Source: a virus. From it: a stretch of 34,574 bases of DNA. The stretch covers positions 1-34,574 of the IMG/VR virus record IMGVR_UViG_3300009285_016361. One strand, given 5' to 3'. The notes under the pieces are model-generated. The model saw only the letters and a list, made by a program, of their open reading frames with translations. It had not been told where the DNA came from and searched no databases. Of this stretch, positions 2,975 to 15,924 are shown one piece after another (within the stretch, counting starts at the first letter, position 1; each line of letters starts with the position of its first letter). Both the position numbers and the translations under genes were made by a program.

Positions 2975-3556
2975 ATGGCAAGAATAAAAAAAGAAAATCT
3001 ACCAAAAATAAAGACTTCGCTGATGCACAGAGAAACTGAGCAGCAATATCATGCGTGGCTTTTATACAACGAGACAGGAAGCATAGAAAGACTGCTAAGG
3101 GCGTGGGAACGGATACACCAGGGCTACTCCAAAGATACACCAGAAATTGAAGGGCTAAGAGACAGATTAAACAAACCGCCAGCGCTCGACACACTCAAAG
3201 ATTGGTCGAGGAAATATCAGTGGGTAAACAGAACCGAGCTACTCCTCGGCGAGGAGATGGAACAGCAGAAATTAAAGGTCGAAAGATTCAGGGCAAAGCG
3301 CAAGTTCCTCGTCACCGACATCCTAATGAGCAAAATGACCAAACTGCAGAAGCAGGCACGCACAGAAACAGCCACAGTCCCAGAAGTTAAATACCTCTGG
3401 GAAATGCATAGGACAGAATTCGGTGAGTCCACAGGCAAGACTGAGGTCACCCACCACATTGATGAGAGCGAGCAAGTCCCACCAAGCCAGGAAGAAGTCG
3501 AACTCGGAAAGCAGATCGATGAGTTAATCGAAAAACACTATGAACAAAAACTTTAA
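2975..3556 (+). CDS. terS: Terminase small subunit (putative)
   Basis: The 193-residue protein sits directly upstream of, and overlaps by 17 bases, the large terminase gene. Small subunits recognise phage DNA and hand it to the packaging motor. The N-terminal half contains a helix-turn-helix-like region ending in TLKDWSRKYQWVNRTELL (about 74-91), a pattern typical of small terminases. The second half is helical and charged, fitting an oligomerisation region. The start ATG follows AAAACAT and lacks a Shine-Dalgarno sequence. The call rests on position plus the helix-turn-helix pattern, with no catalytic motif to test. Confidence 0.75.
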   Translation: MARIKKENLPKIKTSLMHRETEQQYHAWLLYNETGSIERLLRAWERIHQGYSKDTPEIEGLRDRLNKPPALDTLKDWSRKYQWVNRTELLLGEEMEQQKLKVERFRAKRKFLVTDILMSKMTKLQKQARTETATVPEVKYLWEMHRTEFGESTGKTEVTHHIDESEQVPPSQEEVELGKQIDELIEKHYEQKL

Positions 3557-5099
3557 TCGAGACAAAAGCAGTGTCCTCCACTGGATACTGGATAACGAGA
3601 TCAAAAACGAAAACAGTATGCCGATAGAGTTTACCAGCCATAAATTCATGCTGAAGATTTATGCTGACCGCTCTCCCATCCAGGTGATCCAAAAAGCCTC
3701 ACAGGTGGGCGCAAGCACAATGGAGATCATCCGCACTCTGCACGGCGCACGCTTCTGGGGCATAAACCAGATTTATACCCTACCAACCAGCGACGATGTC
3801 CTTAAATTCGTGCAAAGCAAGGTAAATAGAATCATCAAAGTGAACCCCTGCATCCAGGAGGGAGTCGATCCCAAAAGCACTGACTCGGTAGAGCAGAAGG
3901 AAATCGGTAAGTCCTTTGTCTTCTTCAAGGGAACATTCACCGAGCGGGAAGCAATCATGCTAACCTCAGACCGCAACATCCACGATGAGCTGGACAAATC
4001 AAAGCCAGAGGTGGTGAGAGATTATACCTCCCGTATGGGCTTCTCAAAAATAAGAAGCCAGCACTTTTTCTCCACGCCCACGATCCCAGACTTCGGCGTT
4101 AATAAACTCTTCGAGCAATCAGACCAGAAGCACTGGCGCTTCAACTGCCCCCACTGCAACTTCCGTCAGCACATGGAGTGGGAAAAGAATGTCGACCAGG
4201 AGCGAGGAATTTATATCTGCCAGAAGTGCCAAAAGGAAATCACACCCCAGCAGATAAACGAGTTAGGAAGCTGGGAGGCACGCTTCCCAGGCAGAAAGAT
4301 ATCAGGCTACTGGATCAGCCAAATGCACTGCCCCTGGAAGACAGCAGCCGACCTGATCAAAGAGAAAGTAGATGCCGACGACGACACCTACTTCTACAAC
4401 TTCGTCCTGGGACTGCCATACCTCGCAGCCGACCAGAAAATCCCGCAAAGCCTGTTTATACGCAACCTGACAGAGGTGGATGCGGTAGCAGCTGACGATC
4501 ACTACAACGTGATGGGCATCGACACAGGCATGGGATCAGGCAAAGGCAACCATGTAATTATAGGCAACAAGACAGGAATCTTCTGGATAGGAATACTCAC
4601 CGACAGTGAAGGACATGACCGCTTCCAGCAGGCAGCCGACCTTATAAAGTTTTACGACATCAGGGTGGTTGTGATCGATGGACAACCCTACACCGAGGAA
4701 GCATGGAATCTAGCCAAAGAATTCCCCTACAGGGTCTACCTAAGCTGGTTCAAGGACGACCCAAAGATGCTGGAAGTAGTGCGCTTTTTTGATGAGGAAG
4801 AAGGCAAAGACAAAGAGATGACCGACGAGGTGAAAGTCTACTCCTCCCGCACCAGAATCATGGACGACACCATCTCAGCGCTCAGGCGGGGCGAGATCAA
4901 GTTCGCCATGAAGTCCGACAGTCCCACTTTCAAAATGCTGATCGATCACGCCCAGACAATGTACGCCAGGAATGTGACCGACAAGTTCGGGCAGACCAAG
5001 CGGGAATGGGCAAACACAGGCGCAAACGACTTCTGGCTGGCACTTATCTACTGGCACATCGCATTAAAAAAGAGAAATAAATATGAGCCAAACAAATAA
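3540..5099 (+). CDS. terL: Terminase large subunit (GpA-like)
   Basis: The 519-residue protein is the packaging ATPase and nuclease. A GpA-type Walker A stretch, KASQVGAST, lies at residues 52-60, and a Walker B with catalytic acid (IHDELD, D149-E150) follows, then STPTIPD near 178-184. A zinc-ribbon insert (C203, C206, C227, C230) is typical of the GpA family. The C-terminal nuclease domain begins around 322 with GID328TG, and a second acidic strand VVVID380 follows. The length suits the family and the gene is intact. It overlaps the small subunit gene by 17 bases and the next gene by the same amount, indicating one transcript. Confidence 0.93.
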   Translation: MNKNFNRDKSSVLHWILDNEIKNENSMPIEFTSHKFMLKIYADRSPIQVIQKASQVGASTMEIIRTLHGARFWGINQIYTLPTSDDVLKFVQSKVNRIIKVNPCIQEGVDPKSTDSVEQKEIGKSFVFFKGTFTEREAIMLTSDRNIHDELDKSKPEVVRDYTSRMGFSKIRSQHFFSTPTIPDFGVNKLFEQSDQKHWRFNCPHCNFRQHMEWEKNVDQERGIYICQKCQKEITPQQINELGSWEARFPGRKISGYWISQMHCPWKTAADLIKEKVDADDDTYFYNFVLGLPYLAADQKIPQSLFIRNLTEVDAVAADDHYNVMGIDTGMGSGKGNHVIIGNKTGIFWIGILTDSEGHDRFQQAADLIKFYDIRVVVIDGQPYTEEAWNLAKEFPYRVYLSWFKDDPKMLEVVRFFDEEEGKDKEMTDEVKVYSSRTRIMDDTISALRRGEIKFAMKSDSPTFKMLIDHAQTMYARNVTDKFGQTKREWANTGANDFWLALIYWHIALKKRNKYEPNK

Positions 5100-5560: not shown

Positions 5561-5917
5561 ATGGTAAGTAATAAACAGACAGTAACCATCACAAAGAAGG
5601 ACTTCCTCGCCTACCTGAAAGTCCAACGCTCAGGGGTAACTAACATGTTTGACACCCCAGTAGTAAAAAAACTGAGCGGGCTTTCCAAAGATAAAATCCT
5701 CGACATCATGAAGCACTACTCAAAATACAATGAGCGCTGGAATCCAGACGAGCTACTCAAAATGATTGAGGTTAGTAAGCTACTCAAAGTCCACCCCAAC
5801 ACCCTGCGCCAATGGGACGCCAAAGGAATCCTCAAGGCGATCAGATTCGGGCAAAGGCAGGACAGACGCTACCGCAGAAAAGACATAGAGAAGTTGATAG
5901 AAAGGAGGGAAGCATGA
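5561..5917 (+). CDS. MerR-type helix-turn-helix regulator or excisionase
   Basis: The 118-residue protein has two parts. Residues about 8-60 are a helical region of unknown family. Residues about 68-116 form a winged helix of the MerR/excisionase type: SKLLKVHPNTLRQWDAKG is the helix-turn-helix and RRYRRKDIEKLI the wing and following helix. It therefore probably binds DNA, either as a transcription switch or as an excisionase partner of the integrase at the far end. It appears to have its own promoter with almost no leader. No conventional cI-like repressor is visible elsewhere, so this protein is a candidate for the lysogeny switch. Confidence 0.8.
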   Translation: MVSNKQTVTITKKDFLAYLKVQRSGVTNMFDTPVVKKLSGLSKDKILDIMKHYSKYNERWNPDELLKMIEVSKLLKVHPNTLRQWDAKGILKAIRFGQRQDRRYRRKDIEKLIERREA

Positions 5918-6094: not shown

Positions 6095-7084
6095 ATGACA
6101 AAAACAAAGAAACTGATCATCGGAGGACTTATAACAGCAGGTGTAGCTATAAGCCTGACAGCCACTATCGCCTACAACACCCTCTTCAACGCACCGCAGA
6201 AGCAAGCAGAGGCGGAAGTCTTCGTAGTAAGCACTGTCGCAGAGCAACAGGATATCAAAGGCAAACTCAAAAGCCAGGGATTTATAAAGAACACCTGGGC
6301 ATTCAACTACGCCCTAACCAAAACAGACGGCAAGATCGACCCAGGAGGCTACCGAATAAACATGAGTATGGACGCCTGGACGATGGCAAAAACACTCGCA
6401 GCCGAACCAGCAATGAAATGGGTCACAATCCCAGAGGGCTTGCGCAAAGAGGAAATCGGAGAACGCCTGGCAAAGATACTGGGCTGGGATGAGAAGGCAC
6501 TGCACGAATGGACTTATACCTACACCGCAATGGACTACGACCACCTGGAAGGAGTCTACTTCCCCGACACTTACCTTATACCAACAGACGAAAACGGACT
6601 AGACGCAGCCAACCGCCTCCGCAGGCGCTTCGACGAGCAATTCGCACCCTACATGACCAAATTCTTGAAGCAAAATGTCAAATGGACAACAGCACTCAAG
6701 ATAGCCTCTATAATCCAAAGAGAAGCAGGAGGCAAAGCAGACATGCCACTGATCGCAGGAATCCTCTGGAATCGTCTCGACAAAAACATGAAGCTGGAGG
6801 TCGACGCCACAGTGCAATACGCCAGGGATGACCGAGACGAGCTGACCACAGGCTTCTGGAAGCCAATCAAAGTAGCCGACAAAGAGATCGACTCAAAATA
6901 TAACACCTACAAATACGCAGGACTCCCACCCTTCCCAATAGCCAACCCAGGAATGGACGCCATCGAAGCGGTGCTGAACCCCACTGAAACAGAGTGCTTA
7001 TACTACCTGCACGATGCAGACAGGCAAATCCACTGCGCCGAGACATACGAAGGGCATAAAGAAAACATCGAAAAATACCTATGA
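6095..7084 (+). CDS. mltG: Endolytic murein transglycosylase, MltG-like
   Basis: The 329-residue protein has an N-terminal membrane anchor (about 7-30) followed by an extracytoplasmic MltG/YceG domain. The signature is clear: ASIIQREAGG at 204-213 with the probable catalytic glutamate E210, then IAGILWNRLDKNMKLEVDAT, YNTYKYAGLPPFPIANPG, and a C-terminal YYLHD segment. MltG cuts nascent glycan strands in bacterial walls and is normally a cellular housekeeping gene. Its presence between terminase and portal suggests acquisition from a host and use in wall remodelling during infection or lysogeny. The domain is complete, and it is followed by a 4-base overlap with the next gene. Confidence 0.92.
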   Translation: MTKTKKLIIGGLITAGVAISLTATIAYNTLFNAPQKQAEAEVFVVSTVAEQQDIKGKLKSQGFIKNTWAFNYALTKTDGKIDPGGYRINMSMDAWTMAKTLAAEPAMKWVTIPEGLRKEEIGERLAKILGWDEKALHEWTYTYTAMDYDHLEGVYFPDTYLIPTDENGLDAANRLRRRFDEQFAPYMTKFLKQNVKWTTALKIASIIQREAGGKADMPLIAGILWNRLDKNMKLEVDATVQYARDDRDELTTGFWKPIKVADKEIDSKYNTYKYAGLPPFPIANPGMDAIEAVLNPTETECLYYLHDADRQIHCAETYEGHKENIEKYL

Positions 7085-10145: not shown

Positions 10146-10175
10146 TTGCATTTTTAATTCGAACTTTGTTAGAAT
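10146..10175 (+). promoter_or_regulatory. Promoter of the portal leader (unit 1)
   Basis: -35 TTGCAT at 10146-10151, an 18-base spacer and -10 TAGAAT at 10170-10175. The bases CACTTG at the -35 and ATGAAAGCAGT from the -10 onward are shared with the second unit at 12167, showing that the promoter was duplicated together with its leader. Confidence 0.75.
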
Positions 10176-10181
10176 GAAAGC

Positions 10182-10267
10182 AGTAAAGTAATCCGCCTAA
10201 CGAATTGATCGGGGCTTGGGTTTCTCTATTCGAAAGAGTAGGAAAACCTAAGCCCCTTTTTTGTTGG
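10182..10267 (+). ncRNA. Leader RNA unit 1, before portal
   Basis: The transcript from the promoter above would begin near 10182. It carries CTAACGAATTGATCGGGG (10197-10214), identical in unit 2 at 12221-12238, and then runs into a long hairpin followed by six T and GTTGG. ATCC at 10191-10194 can pair with GGAT at 10266-10269 around the whole hairpin. The RNA either ends at the terminator, giving a small RNA of about 80 bases, or reads through into the portal gene, whose ATG is at 10278. Which occurs is not visible. Confidence 0.6.
10211..10262 (+). terminator. Intrinsic terminator / attenuator of unit 1
   Basis: GGGGCTT at 10211-10217 pairs with AAGCCCC at 10250-10256, the stem continues with GGTTT and AAACC, and the inner CTCT/AGAG closes a small loop. 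Six T follow at 10257-10262. It lies between the promoter and the portal start, so it must be bypassed for this promoter to express the portal gene. Confidence 0.75.
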
Positions 10268-10277
10268 ATAAAATCAT

Positions 10278-12161
10278 ATGCCAGAAGTCAAAGAAGAAAA
10301 AATCACACAACCAGGTCGCTACGAACCAACGGAAGCCGACTCCAAACTGATCGAGAAATGGAAGAAAAGGTTCAAGCGAGCAAAAGAATTCAGAGAGCCA
10401 TACCAAGCAAAATGGTTGAGGCTTTATCAACTGTATCGAGCTTATCAAGCCAAGCTGAACTACGCCTACAACACCCGCCTGATGCCCCCTATCGCCTTTG
10501 AAATCGTGAAGACTGTGGTGTCCAGGCTGGCAACCGCCAAACGCAAGACCAGAATCCTACCAAGAGAAAAAGCCGATCTAAAATCCACCTCCCTCAACTC
10601 CTGGGATGACTTGGTAAATTACGACTTTGACATTATCGAGCTGGCAAAGAAACTCCCCAACTGGATCGAAGCATCAACCATTTACGGCAACGGCATCGTG
10701 AAGCTGGCATGGAAAATGCTGACCACAACCAACAGCGAAGGCAAGGTAACCACAATCTACGACGACCCCACCATGAGCCTAGCGGATCTCTGGGACTTGC
10801 TCCCCGCCCCTGAAACGGAAGACCTGCAGGAAAGTTGCCCCTGGCTCATTCACCGCATAGTCAAACCTAAAACCAGGATAGAGAAAGAGGAAAAAACCAG
10901 AGGCGAAGACAAGATTTATAAGAACATGGAATTTGTAGAGGACAAAACAGTTGAGGACTGGAAGAAAGAACGATACGAAATCAACGCTAAAAAGATGTCC
11001 CAGATGGGCGGAAGCGAAAAGGAAAATGAGAGTGGAGAGAGCAGAATCCTCCCCGAAAAAATGGATGGCGAAAAGCAGGTAGAAATCTGGGAATGCTGGG
11101 ACTGGGAAGAAGACAGGCTGGTCGTCATTATGAACCAGGAAATCCTAACGAGAGACGATGAGAACCCCTACCTGGGAATCAACGGCGGAAGGGTCTTCGT
11201 CGACCTGCCAGACATGCCACTCCTCTGGGAGTTCTGGGCAACAGGACACATCGAGCCAGTCGAAACCACGATCCTCGAAATCGCAGACCTTCGAAACCAG
11301 CGCATGGACGACATCATCATGATGCTCGACCCAGTGGTTAAGATCAGAAAAGAATCAGGCATAACCAAAAACGACATCATCTTCGCACCAGGCGCAGTCT
11401 GGGAGCTGAGGAAAATGGACGACGCCGTGATTGAAAGACCGCCTGAAATCAGCCTCATGGGAGTGAACGAAGACAAGATGATGAGGGACGAAATCAGCAG
11501 AACTCTGGCGCTGGGAGAGTATATGCAGGGCATGCCCCAGTCCTCCAGCGAACCGCTCGGCAAGGTGGCGATGCTTCTCGGACAGAGCAACCTCCGCCTG
11601 AGCATGAACGCCAACAACATCGCAATAGCGCTAACCCAGGTGGCAAACATCCTGATCGACATGAACCGAGAATTTATCAGCGAAGACAAACTCTACCGAG
11701 TTGTTGGAGAGGAAGTCAACTTCAAGGAATTTAAGAAGGATGACAAAAAAGTGAAGGTTGACGCAATCGTCGAAGTCGACCCAGTGATACCACCAGACCA
11801 AACAGCCAGAATAAACCAGATACTGATGCTCTACGACAAGCTCATCGCCCAGGACAAACCCAACCCCAACGACGCAAACGAAGTAAAGACCTGGCTCAAG
11901 AGAAAGAGAGAGTTGCAGAAGATGCTCCTAGAGGAGCTGGATCTCGACTCTTATATCGATCTACTGCTGGGCGCAGACCCAAATGAGGCAGGTGTAGAGT
12001 CAACGGAGACACCGACAGAACCCAGCGCCGTTGCCCCCGTGTCGCCCGCTGTCGGGGCTTTGCCAGCTCAGTCGGCTGGTAATACCCCTGCAAACGCAGG
12101 CGGAGGGATGCGGGCAATGCTAAAGCAGATTCCCCTGCTTGGGAAAATGATGGCGCAATAA
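10278..12161 (+). CDS. Portal protein
   Basis: The 627-residue protein is the expected size and position for a portal, the dodecameric ring through which DNA is packaged and to which the tail adaptor binds. Supporting stretches are the N-terminal helical clamp region with RLMPPIAFEIVKTVVSRLAT (about 71-90), a long stem or wing segment around 325-360 (VETTILEIADLRNQRMDDII) and a helical crown-like region around 415-470. The last 50 residues are Pro/Ala/Gly-rich and disordered. The start ATG has no Shine-Dalgarno sequence. Position before the scaffold and capsid genes supports the call, though there is no single diagnostic catalytic motif. Confidence 0.88.
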   Translation: MPEVKEEKITQPGRYEPTEADSKLIEKWKKRFKRAKEFREPYQAKWLRLYQLYRAYQAKLNYAYNTRLMPPIAFEIVKTVVSRLATAKRKTRILPREKADLKSTSLNSWDDLVNYDFDIIELAKKLPNWIEASTIYGNGIVKLAWKMLTTTNSEGKVTTIYDDPTMSLADLWDLLPAPETEDLQESCPWLIHRIVKPKTRIEKEEKTRGEDKIYKNMEFVEDKTVEDWKKERYEINAKKMSQMGGSEKENESGESRILPEKMDGEKQVEIWECWDWEEDRLVVIMNQEILTRDDENPYLGINGGRVFVDLPDMPLLWEFWATGHIEPVETTILEIADLRNQRMDDIIMMLDPVVKIRKESGITKNDIIFAPGAVWELRKMDDAVIERPPEISLMGVNEDKMMRDEISRTLALGEYMQGMPQSSSEPLGKVAMLLGQSNLRLSMNANNIAIALTQVANILIDMNREFISEDKLYRVVGEEVNFKEFKKDDKKVKVDAIVEVDPVIPPDQTARINQILMLYDKLIAQDKPNPNDANEVKTWLKRKRELQKMLLEELDLDSYIDLLLGADPNEAGVESTETPTEPSAVAPVSPAVGALPAQSAGNTPANAGGGMRAMLKQIPLLGKMMAQ

Positions 12162-12166
12162 ATCAC

Positions 12167-12196
12167 TTGACAAAGGGTCAAGGACTTTATTACAAT
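12167..12196 (+). promoter_or_regulatory. Promoter of leader unit 2
   Basis: -35 TTGACA (consensus) at 12167-12172, an 18-base spacer and -10 TACAAT at 12191-12196. It is the stronger of the twin promoters and starts 6 bases after the portal stop. The spacing equals that of unit 1. Confidence 0.85.
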
Positions 12197-12202
12197 GAAA
12201 GC

Positions 12203-12301
12203 AGTTAAGAAGACCAACGCCTAACGAATTGATCGGGGCTAAGACTTCTGGATATACGCAAATGCGTGTGTTTAGAAGTTTTAGCCCCTTTTTTGTTGGT
12301 C
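12203..12301 (+). ncRNA. Leader RNA unit 2, before decoration-like gene
   Basis: This unit shares with unit 1 the block CTAACGAATTGATCGGGG (here 12221-12238), the T tract and GTTGG after it. The stem and loop sequences between are different but still pair. GACCAAC at 12212-12218 can pair perfectly with GTTGGTC at 12295-12301, enclosing the whole element and ending just before the ribosome binding site of the next gene. It is a terminated RNA of about 90 bases or a read-through leader. Confidence 0.65.
12235..12294 (+). terminator. Intrinsic terminator / attenuator of unit 2
   Basis: GGGGCTAAGACTTCT at 12235-12249 pairs with AGAAGTTTTAGCCCC at 12274-12288, with one or two G-U pairs. An inner ATACGC/GCGTGT hairpin (12254-12269) closes it, and six T follow at 12289-12294. 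It also serves as the end of the portal transcript. Confidence 0.8.
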
Positions 12302-12320: not shown

Positions 12321-12722
12321 ATGAAAACACTAAGACAAAATATCCAAATCAAACAAGTCCTCCCTATTCAAGTCATCGTCGACACCACAGAAGGCGCAGC
12401 CATTGATACCCGTCAAGGCGGAGGCAACAACTTCGACACCGCTCTCGTTAATGTAGAAATCGGCGACCTCGGAACACAAGCCACCACCGCAGTAAAGATC
12501 GAGGAATCGGACACTTCCGATTTCAGCGCAGGCAATCAAGTCGCCAAAGGCGGAGAGGAAGTGACTGTCGCAGCCGACACCTCCTACAAGATGGAAGTCG
12601 AAAGAGCTAAGAGATACCTGAGAGCCGTCGTGACCTTCGCAACGCCAGGAGTAACGCCAACAGCAGAAGTATTTATTGGAGCAATTCTGTGGAATGCCCA
12701 AAAGCCATTCCCAGTCGTATAA
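12321..12722 (+). CDS. Head decoration-like virion protein
   Basis: The 133-residue protein follows leader unit 2 with a good ribosome binding site (TAGGAGGTG). It is predicted to be all beta, ending in AEVFIGAILWNAQKPFPV, a pattern I associate with small phage capsid-associated proteins that report an experimental-value-like beta fold. Acidic residues (EIGD, EESDTSD) are common. It is the first gene after a strong promoter, which fits a protein needed in many copies such as a decoration protein. The name is provisional, resting on position, size and fold pattern. Confidence 0.72.
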   Translation: MKTLRQNIQIKQVLPIQVIVDTTEGAAIDTRQGGGNNFDTALVNVEIGDLGTQATTAVKIEESDTSDFSAGNQVAKGGEEVTVAADTSYKMEVERAKRYLRAVVTFATPGVTPTAEVFIGAILWNAQKPFPVV

Positions 12723-14739: not shown

Positions 14740-15924
14740 ATGCCATCAGCAACAGGAATCAGAGGAACAAACATAGCACCAGGGTCAGCGACAGTAATGC
14801 CGACTCGTAAGTACGATGTCGCAGATGTGATATCGCTATTGGATGTCAACAGATATCCGCTTTTAGCGATCTTGACAAATGCAGGGAAAGACCCAGTGAC
14901 CAAGCAAGGAAAAGCCATGAAAAAGGTCGAGACAATCGACCCGCAATTCAAGTGGTTTGAGGATGAATTTGGAAAGAGACAACTGACAGGATCAAGCACT
15001 GTCGACCCAGACGGAGGCAACTTGACCATCACTGGTCAAAGCCAATATCTGCAAGTCGGTGATGTGATTATGGTAGCAGCGCAGAAATGGGTATTCCAGG
15101 TAACAGTGATCGTCGACGCAGACACAGTCACAGTGGGAGCAGAACTAGGAGGGGCAACAGGCGCAGCTGCAACCGCAGTCGGAGATGTCTGGCTCATCGG
15201 AAACGCTAACGAGGAAGGTGCAGGACTTCGAGCAATCAAATCCACGCTCGCAGCAGAGATCTACAACTACTGTCAAATCTTCAGAACGCCAGTGGGTATC
15301 ACGGAGACAGCCAAAAATACCAAGATGTGGACGAAGGAAAACGACTTTGACTATCAGAGACGCAAGAAAGGGATTGAACACATGGTCGATATCGAGAGAG
15401 CATTTCTCTTCGGTAAAAGAGGACTTATCACGTCAGGAACGCATCCTAAGAGGTTTAGCGCTGGAATTCTAAGCAGGATCAGCACCTACGCCACAGGAAA
15501 TGTCGACACGGAAGCAGAATTCGAGACATGGTTGGAGAGCTTGTTCGCACACGGAAATGTGGAGAAATACCTCTTTGCAGCATCATCGGTGATCTCAATG
15601 ATCAACCAGTGGGCAAAGGGCAAACTCCAAGTAATGCCAAAGGATAAGACCTACGGATTGTCAATCGTCACATTCGAATCGCCACACGGAACGCTACACA
15701 TGGTGAAGCATCCGCTATTGACTGGAACGACCTATGGAAACTATGCAGTTGGACTTGATTTGGAATGTTTGACATACCGCTACCTAAGTAATCGAGACAC
15801 CAAACTCTTGACTAATCGTCAGGGGAATGATGAGGACAGCCAGGTCGACGAGTACTTGAGTGAAGTCGGATTGCAAATGGAACAAGAGTCCCGCCACGCC
15901 ATCATGAGCATGGGCGCACTCTAA
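14740..15924 (+). CDS. Major capsid protein (SU10/DUF5309-like)
   Basis: The 394-residue protein has the size, position and style of a SU10-like (DUF5309) HK97-fold capsid protein. Features are an N-terminal arm, then VSLLDVNRYPLLAILTNAG-like helix region (about 30-50), FKWFEDEFGKR (about 70-80), a beta region around 90-150, a helical GIEHMVDIERAFLFGK (about 211-226) matching the family's ER-x-x-LFGK stretch, and a C-terminal acidic tail. It is preceded by the scaffold-like gene, and its ribosome binding site can be hidden in a hairpin. The gene is intact. Confidence 0.88.
   Translation: MPSATGIRGTNIAPGSATVMPTRKYDVADVISLLDVNRYPLLAILTNAGKDPVTKQGKAMKKVETIDPQFKWFEDEFGKRQLTGSSTVDPDGGNLTITGQSQYLQVGDVIMVAAQKWVFQVTVIVDADTVTVGAELGGATGAAATAVGDVWLIGNANEEGAGLRAIKSTLAAEIYNYCQIFRTPVGITETAKNTKMWTKENDFDYQRRKKGIEHMVDIERAFLFGKRGLITSGTHPKRFSAGILSRISTYATGNVDTEAEFETWLESLFAHGNVEKYLFAASSVISMINQWAKGKLQVMPKDKTYGLSIVTFESPHGTLHMVKHPLLTGTTYGNYAVGLDLECLTYRYLSNRDTKLLTNRQGNDEDSQVDEYLSEVGLQMEQESRHAIMSMGAL

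Follow-up and report, generated by a model that had tools for sequence, protein, structure and literature searches.

In an uncultured phage family, paired leader units with a predicted antiterminator fold precede the portal and capsid-tail operons

In this study, we analyzed a 34,574-nucleotide stretch of viral DNA (IMG/VR record IMGVR_UViG_3300009285_016361; hereafter the window), a phage fragment that carries a terminase gene (3540–5099), a portal gene (10278–12161), a capsid protein gene (14740–15924) and, after these, tail genes. The portal protein is 627 residues long (PHROG 332/156/1216) and its gene starts at an ATG at 10278 without a Shine-Dalgarno sequence; one is also missing from the portal genes of relatives that stand behind the type of leader described below, and several other genes of the window have AAGGAGGTGA-type sites. 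The next gene of interest, here called the H gene (12321–12722, 133 residues), belongs to PHROG 5707, which has no assigned function, and is the first of a head-tail operon encoding a scaffold-like protein, the capsid protein and tail proteins. The capsid protein is a major capsid protein of the SU10 type (PHROG 1328, major head protein); its orthologue in the related phage G004, where the operon is about 18 kb long, is 78% identical, and one protein of that G004 set matches SU10_MCP. A fold model of the H protein was poor (pLDDT 61) and all-beta, and the only structures that this low-confidence model matched, weakly, were jelly-roll capsid and cement proteins.

No recognizable portal relative was found by tblastn among annotated phages, and the phage therefore has no cultured relative and no host assignment; portal relatives were found at 44 loci in IMG/VR. 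The phage group is probably temperate, as judged from the genes of G004, among them those for a repressor-like HTH protein, an M78 peptidase and a resolvase. A YceG/MltG-like gene, recorded in the window (6095–7084) and in G001, G004, G005, G006 and G010, is in most of these phages located between the terminase and portal genes. Another window gene (5561–5914) is a fusion: residues 1–62 match a gene near the terminase in G001, G003, G004 and G010, and residues 63–118 correspond to an HTH gene that stands alone in G001, G003, G010 and L072, where it is divergent from the portal leader. The latter gene is MerR/excisionase-like, and its predicted product is a candidate regulator of the promoter rather than an RNA-binding factor.

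The portal and H genes are each preceded by a promoter-leader-terminator unit (the P-unit and H-unit, respectively), whose elements lie, like the portal, H and major capsid genes, on the plus strand. In the P-unit, a promoter (10146–10175; TTGCAT at 10146–10151, 18 bp, TAGAAT at 10170–10175) is followed by the sequence ATGAAAGCAGT (10174–10184), an 18-base block (10197–10214), a terminator hairpin GGGGCUUGGGUUU...AAACCUAAGCCCC (10211–10256) and a U-run with a conserved GTTGG (10257–10267; six T at 10257–10262, GTTGG at 10263–10267). The H-unit repeats this order, with a promoter at 12167–12196 (TTGACA at 12167–12172, 18 bp, TACAAT at 12191–12196), ATGAAAGCAGT at 12195–12205, the block at 12221–12238, a hairpin that begins GGGGCUAAGACUUCUGGAUAUACGC at 12235–12288, and a U-run with GTTGG at 12289–12299 (six T at 12289–12294, GTTGG at 12295–12299). 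Direct reading placed every element of this twin arrangement, including the 18-base promoter spacing, where the first-pass annotation had located it. The block occurs at only these two sites in the window when up to three mismatches are allowed (0.01 expected), and the folding energies of both hairpins lie far below those of dinucleotide shuffles (−32.2 kcal/mol, z −4.5 for the P-unit; −42.6 kcal/mol, z −9.1 for the H-unit; 0 of 200 equally good). Promoter-like sites are unexceptional alone (13 versus 14.2 expected in the scanned half of the window), and in the same scan the H-unit site scored 11/12 and the P-unit site was absent from the list. The promoters carry weight because their position is conserved in relatives, in which promoter-like hexamers stand at the place matching the P-unit promoter and in several classes read TTGACA-18-TAAAAT.

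The two units had also been described as having a common sequence from the −10 element onward. ATGAAAGCAGT is indeed present in both, but this likeness is specific to the window, as the P- and H-unit promoters of relatives have no obvious similarity. Upstream of the blocks, the two window units are alike at 43 of 60 positions, whereas those of relatives have 29–37 gapped identities in 60 compared with 19 of 21 within the block. The greater resemblance of the window's upstream sequences suggests recent gene conversion, likely a local event between its two copies.

The P-unit, comprising block, hairpin, U-run and GTT, was found directly 5' of the portal gene in G001, G003, G004, G010, L052/L016, L056 and L072, with the block consensus CGCCTAACGAA-NNNN-TCGGGGCT, and the GTT after the U-run is invariant in 13 aligned leaders. 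Orthologous H-units precede the H gene homologue (PHROG 5707) in G001, G003, G004, G010, G016 and G021, and an H-unit was present in six of six block-class H-gene relatives from IMG/VR. Other genes stand between terminase, portal and H gene in relatives; in G001, G003, G004 and G010 the portal and H genes are 8–14 kb apart, yet both keep their units. All non-coding block matches in the IMG/VR scans were 5' of a portal or H gene, the rest being apparently coding chance matches, and each genome had at most two copies, at orthologous sites, with none convincing elsewhere. Exact 18-mer matches, one in IMG/VR and two in GTDB contigs, were rejected as apparent chance since they have no hairpin of the unit type. 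The confinement of block matches to the fronts of the portal and H genes indicates that the two late operons have one leader in common, and sequence comparison thereby confirms the units as real elements, conserved across an uncultured phage family at both its portal and its capsid-tail operon. The U-runs of relatives' H-units are poorer (UUUUUAGUU, UAUUUAGUU, AUUUUAGUU, AAUUUAUUAG), which may mean leaky termination there or a different role for the hairpin.

The terminator stem was assessed in an alignment (A3) of 13 block-bearing leaders from related phages. Pairing was retained in 98.4% of cells, seven pairs were changed on both sides, there were 24 both-side changes compared with 8.5 in shuffles, and covariation was 0.389 versus 0.202 ± 0.019 in shuffles; when the partner was shifted by one base as a control, pairing fell to only 48–60%. 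These values uphold the initial proposal that compensating changes mark the stem as a conserved RNA structure, and a covariance model built from the 13 leaders (R1, below) located leaders of a diverged class. A perfect 7-base closing helix reported for the H-unit (GACCAAC 12212–12218 with GTTGGTC 12295–12301) fared less well, as it is not conserved in relatives. Its sole remnant, UAAC with GUUR, has three of four pairs invariant and the fourth broken in one sequence, and is unproven. Nothing in the window reached the gathering threshold of any Rfam 15 family, with stray matches, mostly to models of eukaryotic snoRNA or miRNA, scoring far under the cut-off, and the portal leaders of relatives (14 loci) likewise had no match above threshold. 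The proposed attenuator leader is absent from Rfam and appears to have been unnamed so far, in agreement with the first impression that no named RNA family has this block.

New here is the recognition that the 5' block can fold, by base-pairing prediction, into a structure that competes with the terminator. The GGGC of the terminator's 5' arm can pair with an upstream GCCU (P1), enclosing AA and a CGA/UCG helix (P2). In the P-unit this domain, the proposed antiterminator, spans 10195–10215 (P1, GCCU 10195–10198 with GGGC 10212–10215; an AA bulge; P2, CGA 10201–10203 with UCG 10209–10211), and in the H-unit it spans 12219–12239 (P1, GCCU 12219–12222 with GGGC 12236–12239; P2, 12225–12227 with 12233–12235). 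Since P1 and P2 use the terminator's own 5' arm, the two folds are mutually exclusive. P1/P2 is the minimum-energy fold of the nascent P-unit leader, and it appeared unprompted when truncated leaders were folded for both window units, the block-class leaders sampled and most leaders of the diverged class B, although the 5' fragment of B_L063 prefers another fold. The energy of the isolated domain, with a P1 of 4 bp and a P2 of 3 bp, is unexceptional (z −0.1 and −0.7).

P1 can form in all 22 aligned leaders of classes A and B, a result equaled by 15 of 20,000 shuffles; in the concatenated alignment A7, which leans to the structure, 100% of cells were paired and 1 of 500 shuffles was as good. 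The pairs 6-24, 7-23 and 8-22 add little to these figures because they are partly fixed by the motif that set the leader register (pyrimidines at 6–7, U at 8, purine-G-G at 22–24). The telling position is 5-25-75 (10195/10215/10252 in the window), at which 19 leaders have G-C-G and three have A-U-A (the H-unit of G021 and the class B leaders L057 and L058), with no mixed combination. The triple change from G-C-G to A-U-A thus occurred in two separate lineages and in each kept both folds possible. Position 8-22-78 changed from U-G-C to U-A-U in L057. Only one P1 pair has changes on both sides, arising from about two evolutionary events. Two hallmarks of an attenuator are found in the units: a terminator hairpin and U-run between promoter and gene, and an exclusive upstream helix on the terminator arm, as judged from sequence evidence that the aligning motif partly fixes.

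A diverged class of leader lies before the portal in seven more phages. R1, the covariance model built from the 13 block-class leaders (A3), gave weak matches in the correct position before the portals of class B phages (L060, L067, L059, L063 and L042; 31.1 to 17.8 bits in 613 kb). The class B layout is CCTGACGGC, an optional small hairpin, and then CGGGGCTACGACTTCTGTC with its terminator. We take classes A and B to be homologous because R1 places class B and because GGGGCT..GACTTCTG is common to class B and the H-units. L064 has kept the hairpin and has no block. Leaders of class C (L068–L070, L090) are unrelated in sequence and have the same order of TTGACA promoter, short leader, strong terminator and portal; their first folds are small hairpins that exclude their own terminator. 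Strong TTGACA-18-TAAAAT promoters are found in both classes B and C. In a distant clade (around L076–L089, about 40% portal identity) promoter-like sequence is present near the gene, and a hairpin of the unit type is absent before the portal.

Several other observations were made on these loci. A looser class B pattern had 16 further matches, all coding-like, which were discarded. A LOOT RNA, a member of an orphan family (RF03000, 79.4 bits), is located at L061:2516-2640, directly upstream of a class B portal promoter, and this placement upstream of the promoter ruled out class B being LOOT RNA itself. In L063, L064 and L067, the stretch from the class B unit to the portal ATG contains one more terminator-like hairpin, upstream of which is a stem (GCAUCGC/GCGAUGC in L064 and GCAUCCC/GGGAUGC in L067) with a loop able to pair with a stretch before the terminator; possibly, this is a pseudoknot attenuator. 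An AAGGTCGR-like sequence is located immediately after the stop codon of the portal gene in four relatives of class B/C (L010, L011, L012, L015). In L006 (G001), GCTCTTTAACA, which resembles the rRNA boxA consensus, lies ~60–70 bases past the portal stop, 5' of a gene with a signal-peptide-like start.

We propose, with a probability of roughly 55%, that each unit acts as an attenuator of transcription ahead of a phage late (virion) operon and carries its own antiterminator. The proposal builds on what the aligned sequences display, namely the anatomy, its conservation at two operons, the covariation of the terminator, and a block strictly compatible with P1 that includes the triple covariation. 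RNA polymerase would start at the sigma70-like promoter and produce a leader of about 80–90 nucleotides, the first part of which (GCCUAACGAANNNNUCGGGGC) would fold at once into P1 (GCCU/GGGC), AA bulge and P2 (CGA/UCG), occupying the terminator's 5' arm. By default the terminator would win, being much more stable (−32 and −42 kcal/mol versus about −6), and transcription would halt 5' of the gene. A factor acting in trans, most likely encoded by the phage and produced late, would bind the conserved block and hold P1/P2, so that the base of the terminator beside the U-run is blocked and polymerase continues into the portal gene at the P-unit and into the head-tail operon at the H-unit. Such a factor would read RNA, because the P- and H-units of relatives share the transcribed block and no obvious promoter sequence. 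We infer, then, that termination and antitermination both occur, that the "on" state corresponds to P1/P2 and that there is such a factor.

The same anatomy could be read in other ways. The hairpin might be a plain intrinsic terminator like lambda tR', with the block or promoter loading a processive Q-, N- or put-like factor that rides with the polymerase and ignores terminators, and with P1/P2 not an antiterminator at all. We consider this rather unlikely, although the logic of strong promoter, early terminator and late genes is that of lambda pR'-tR', the H-unit is followed by a long operon (about 18 kb in G004), the promoters of classes B and C are strong, and L064 has a terminator without a block. 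Q reads DNA (PMC6606751), yet within a genome the two promoters bear no obvious resemblance to each other (29–37 gapped identities in the upstream 60 nucleotides of relatives, which speaks against a Q-like DNA site) and it is the transcribed block that is shared; the triple covariation, moreover, ties that block to the terminator arm. In the phage records, which may be incomplete, matches above cut-off were found neither to the NusG domain (PF02357; 0 of 16 records, with the control positive in 10 genomes) nor to Phage_antitermQ (PF06530; 0 of 14, for this Q family only).

An arrangement with no switch, be it constant partial termination, protection of the mRNA 5' end or a promoter-terminator cassette that is mobile in the manner of the T4 PeSLs, appears unlikely to us. 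The weak U-runs of several H-units and the other genes between terminase, portal and H gene in relatives would fit it, as would the PeSLs, composite promoter-terminator motifs tied to modular shuffling (cited in PMC4503421). However, a mobile cassette should precede many genes, and in no genome are sites used other than the two orthologous ones; simple trimming needs neither an invariant block nor a triple change. The first-pass annotation had left the choice between a small RNA and antitermination, and of these antitermination is favored, since in every sampled phage with the block the unit stands before these two late operons and the block can pair with the terminator's 5' arm. That the promoters yield a stable trans-acting small RNA of about 75–90 nucleotides with the block as its targeting sequence is improbable: the block is mostly unpaired in the terminated form and the terminator is strong, as such an RNA would have it, but the units always stand immediately 5' of either the portal or the H gene, the same block is retained in two copies at two operons, and it can pair and co-varies with its unit's own terminator arm.

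If the attenuator reading is correct, the leader would be an RNA-level late switch common to two operons, and would bear on how virion genes are switched on in uncultured temperate phages without recognizable Q- or NusG-type antiterminators. It would also provide an RNA signature by which portal and capsid operons can be searched for in phage dark matter. More tentatively, and against our own expectation, a whole uncultured phage clade might use a new family of leader-RNA antiterminators to open the portal and capsid-tail operons jointly. On this same speculative footing, the family might be read by a phage protein or by RNA alone, and classes A, B and perhaps C, for all their apparent differences in sequence, might share a CCUNACGR-like core beside the terminator arm.

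The units have counterparts among known systems. They resemble the T4 PeSLs in that a composite promoter is followed by a stem-loop, but differ in occupying two fixed orthologous sites rather than existing in many copies, PeSLs being associated with gene shuffling in T4-like phages (cited in PMC4503421). HK022 put is nascent phage RNA that controls termination, as summarized in PMC9378689, and control of the same kind is proposed here; put suppresses early-gene termination, whereas our block overlaps a terminator arm and precedes late operons. As in lambda and phage 21, where Q acts at pR'-tR', temperate-phage late genes lie behind a promoter and early terminator. Q, however, recognizes DNA located between the −35 and −10 elements, together with a −10-like pause site (PMC6606751), whereas the shared element here is transcribed, and no Phage_antitermQ protein was found.

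Leaders controlled by ANTAR proteins (EutV/NasR/AmiR) have small hairpins exclusive with intrinsic terminators at several sites (PMC3369931), and our units are similar in that a short conserved block overlaps the terminator's 5' arm at several sites and a small hairpin excludes the terminator. ANTAR targets are two hairpins with hexanucleotide loops bearing A at 1 and G at 4 (PMC3369931), whereas the predicted 5' fold of the units is a 4-bp stem, an AA bulge, a 3-bp stem and one 5-nucleotide loop, in place of two hexaloops. No ANTAR domain (PF03861) scored over the cut-off in 14 phage records, an absence that is weak because the control genomes gave no match either. In the RAT of BglG/LicT, the antiterminator hairpin overlaps the 5' arm of the terminator. 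The units differ from that system in having no carbohydrate operon and no CAT_RBD protein (PF03123; 0 of 14 phage records, which may be incomplete, with the control positive in four genomes). The BglG/SacY antiterminators overlap the terminator (PMC3369931), and it is by this anatomy, rather than by sequence, that the predicted antiterminator hairpin of the phage units, which overlaps the 5' arm of its own terminator, can be likened to the CAT_RBD-bound RAT.
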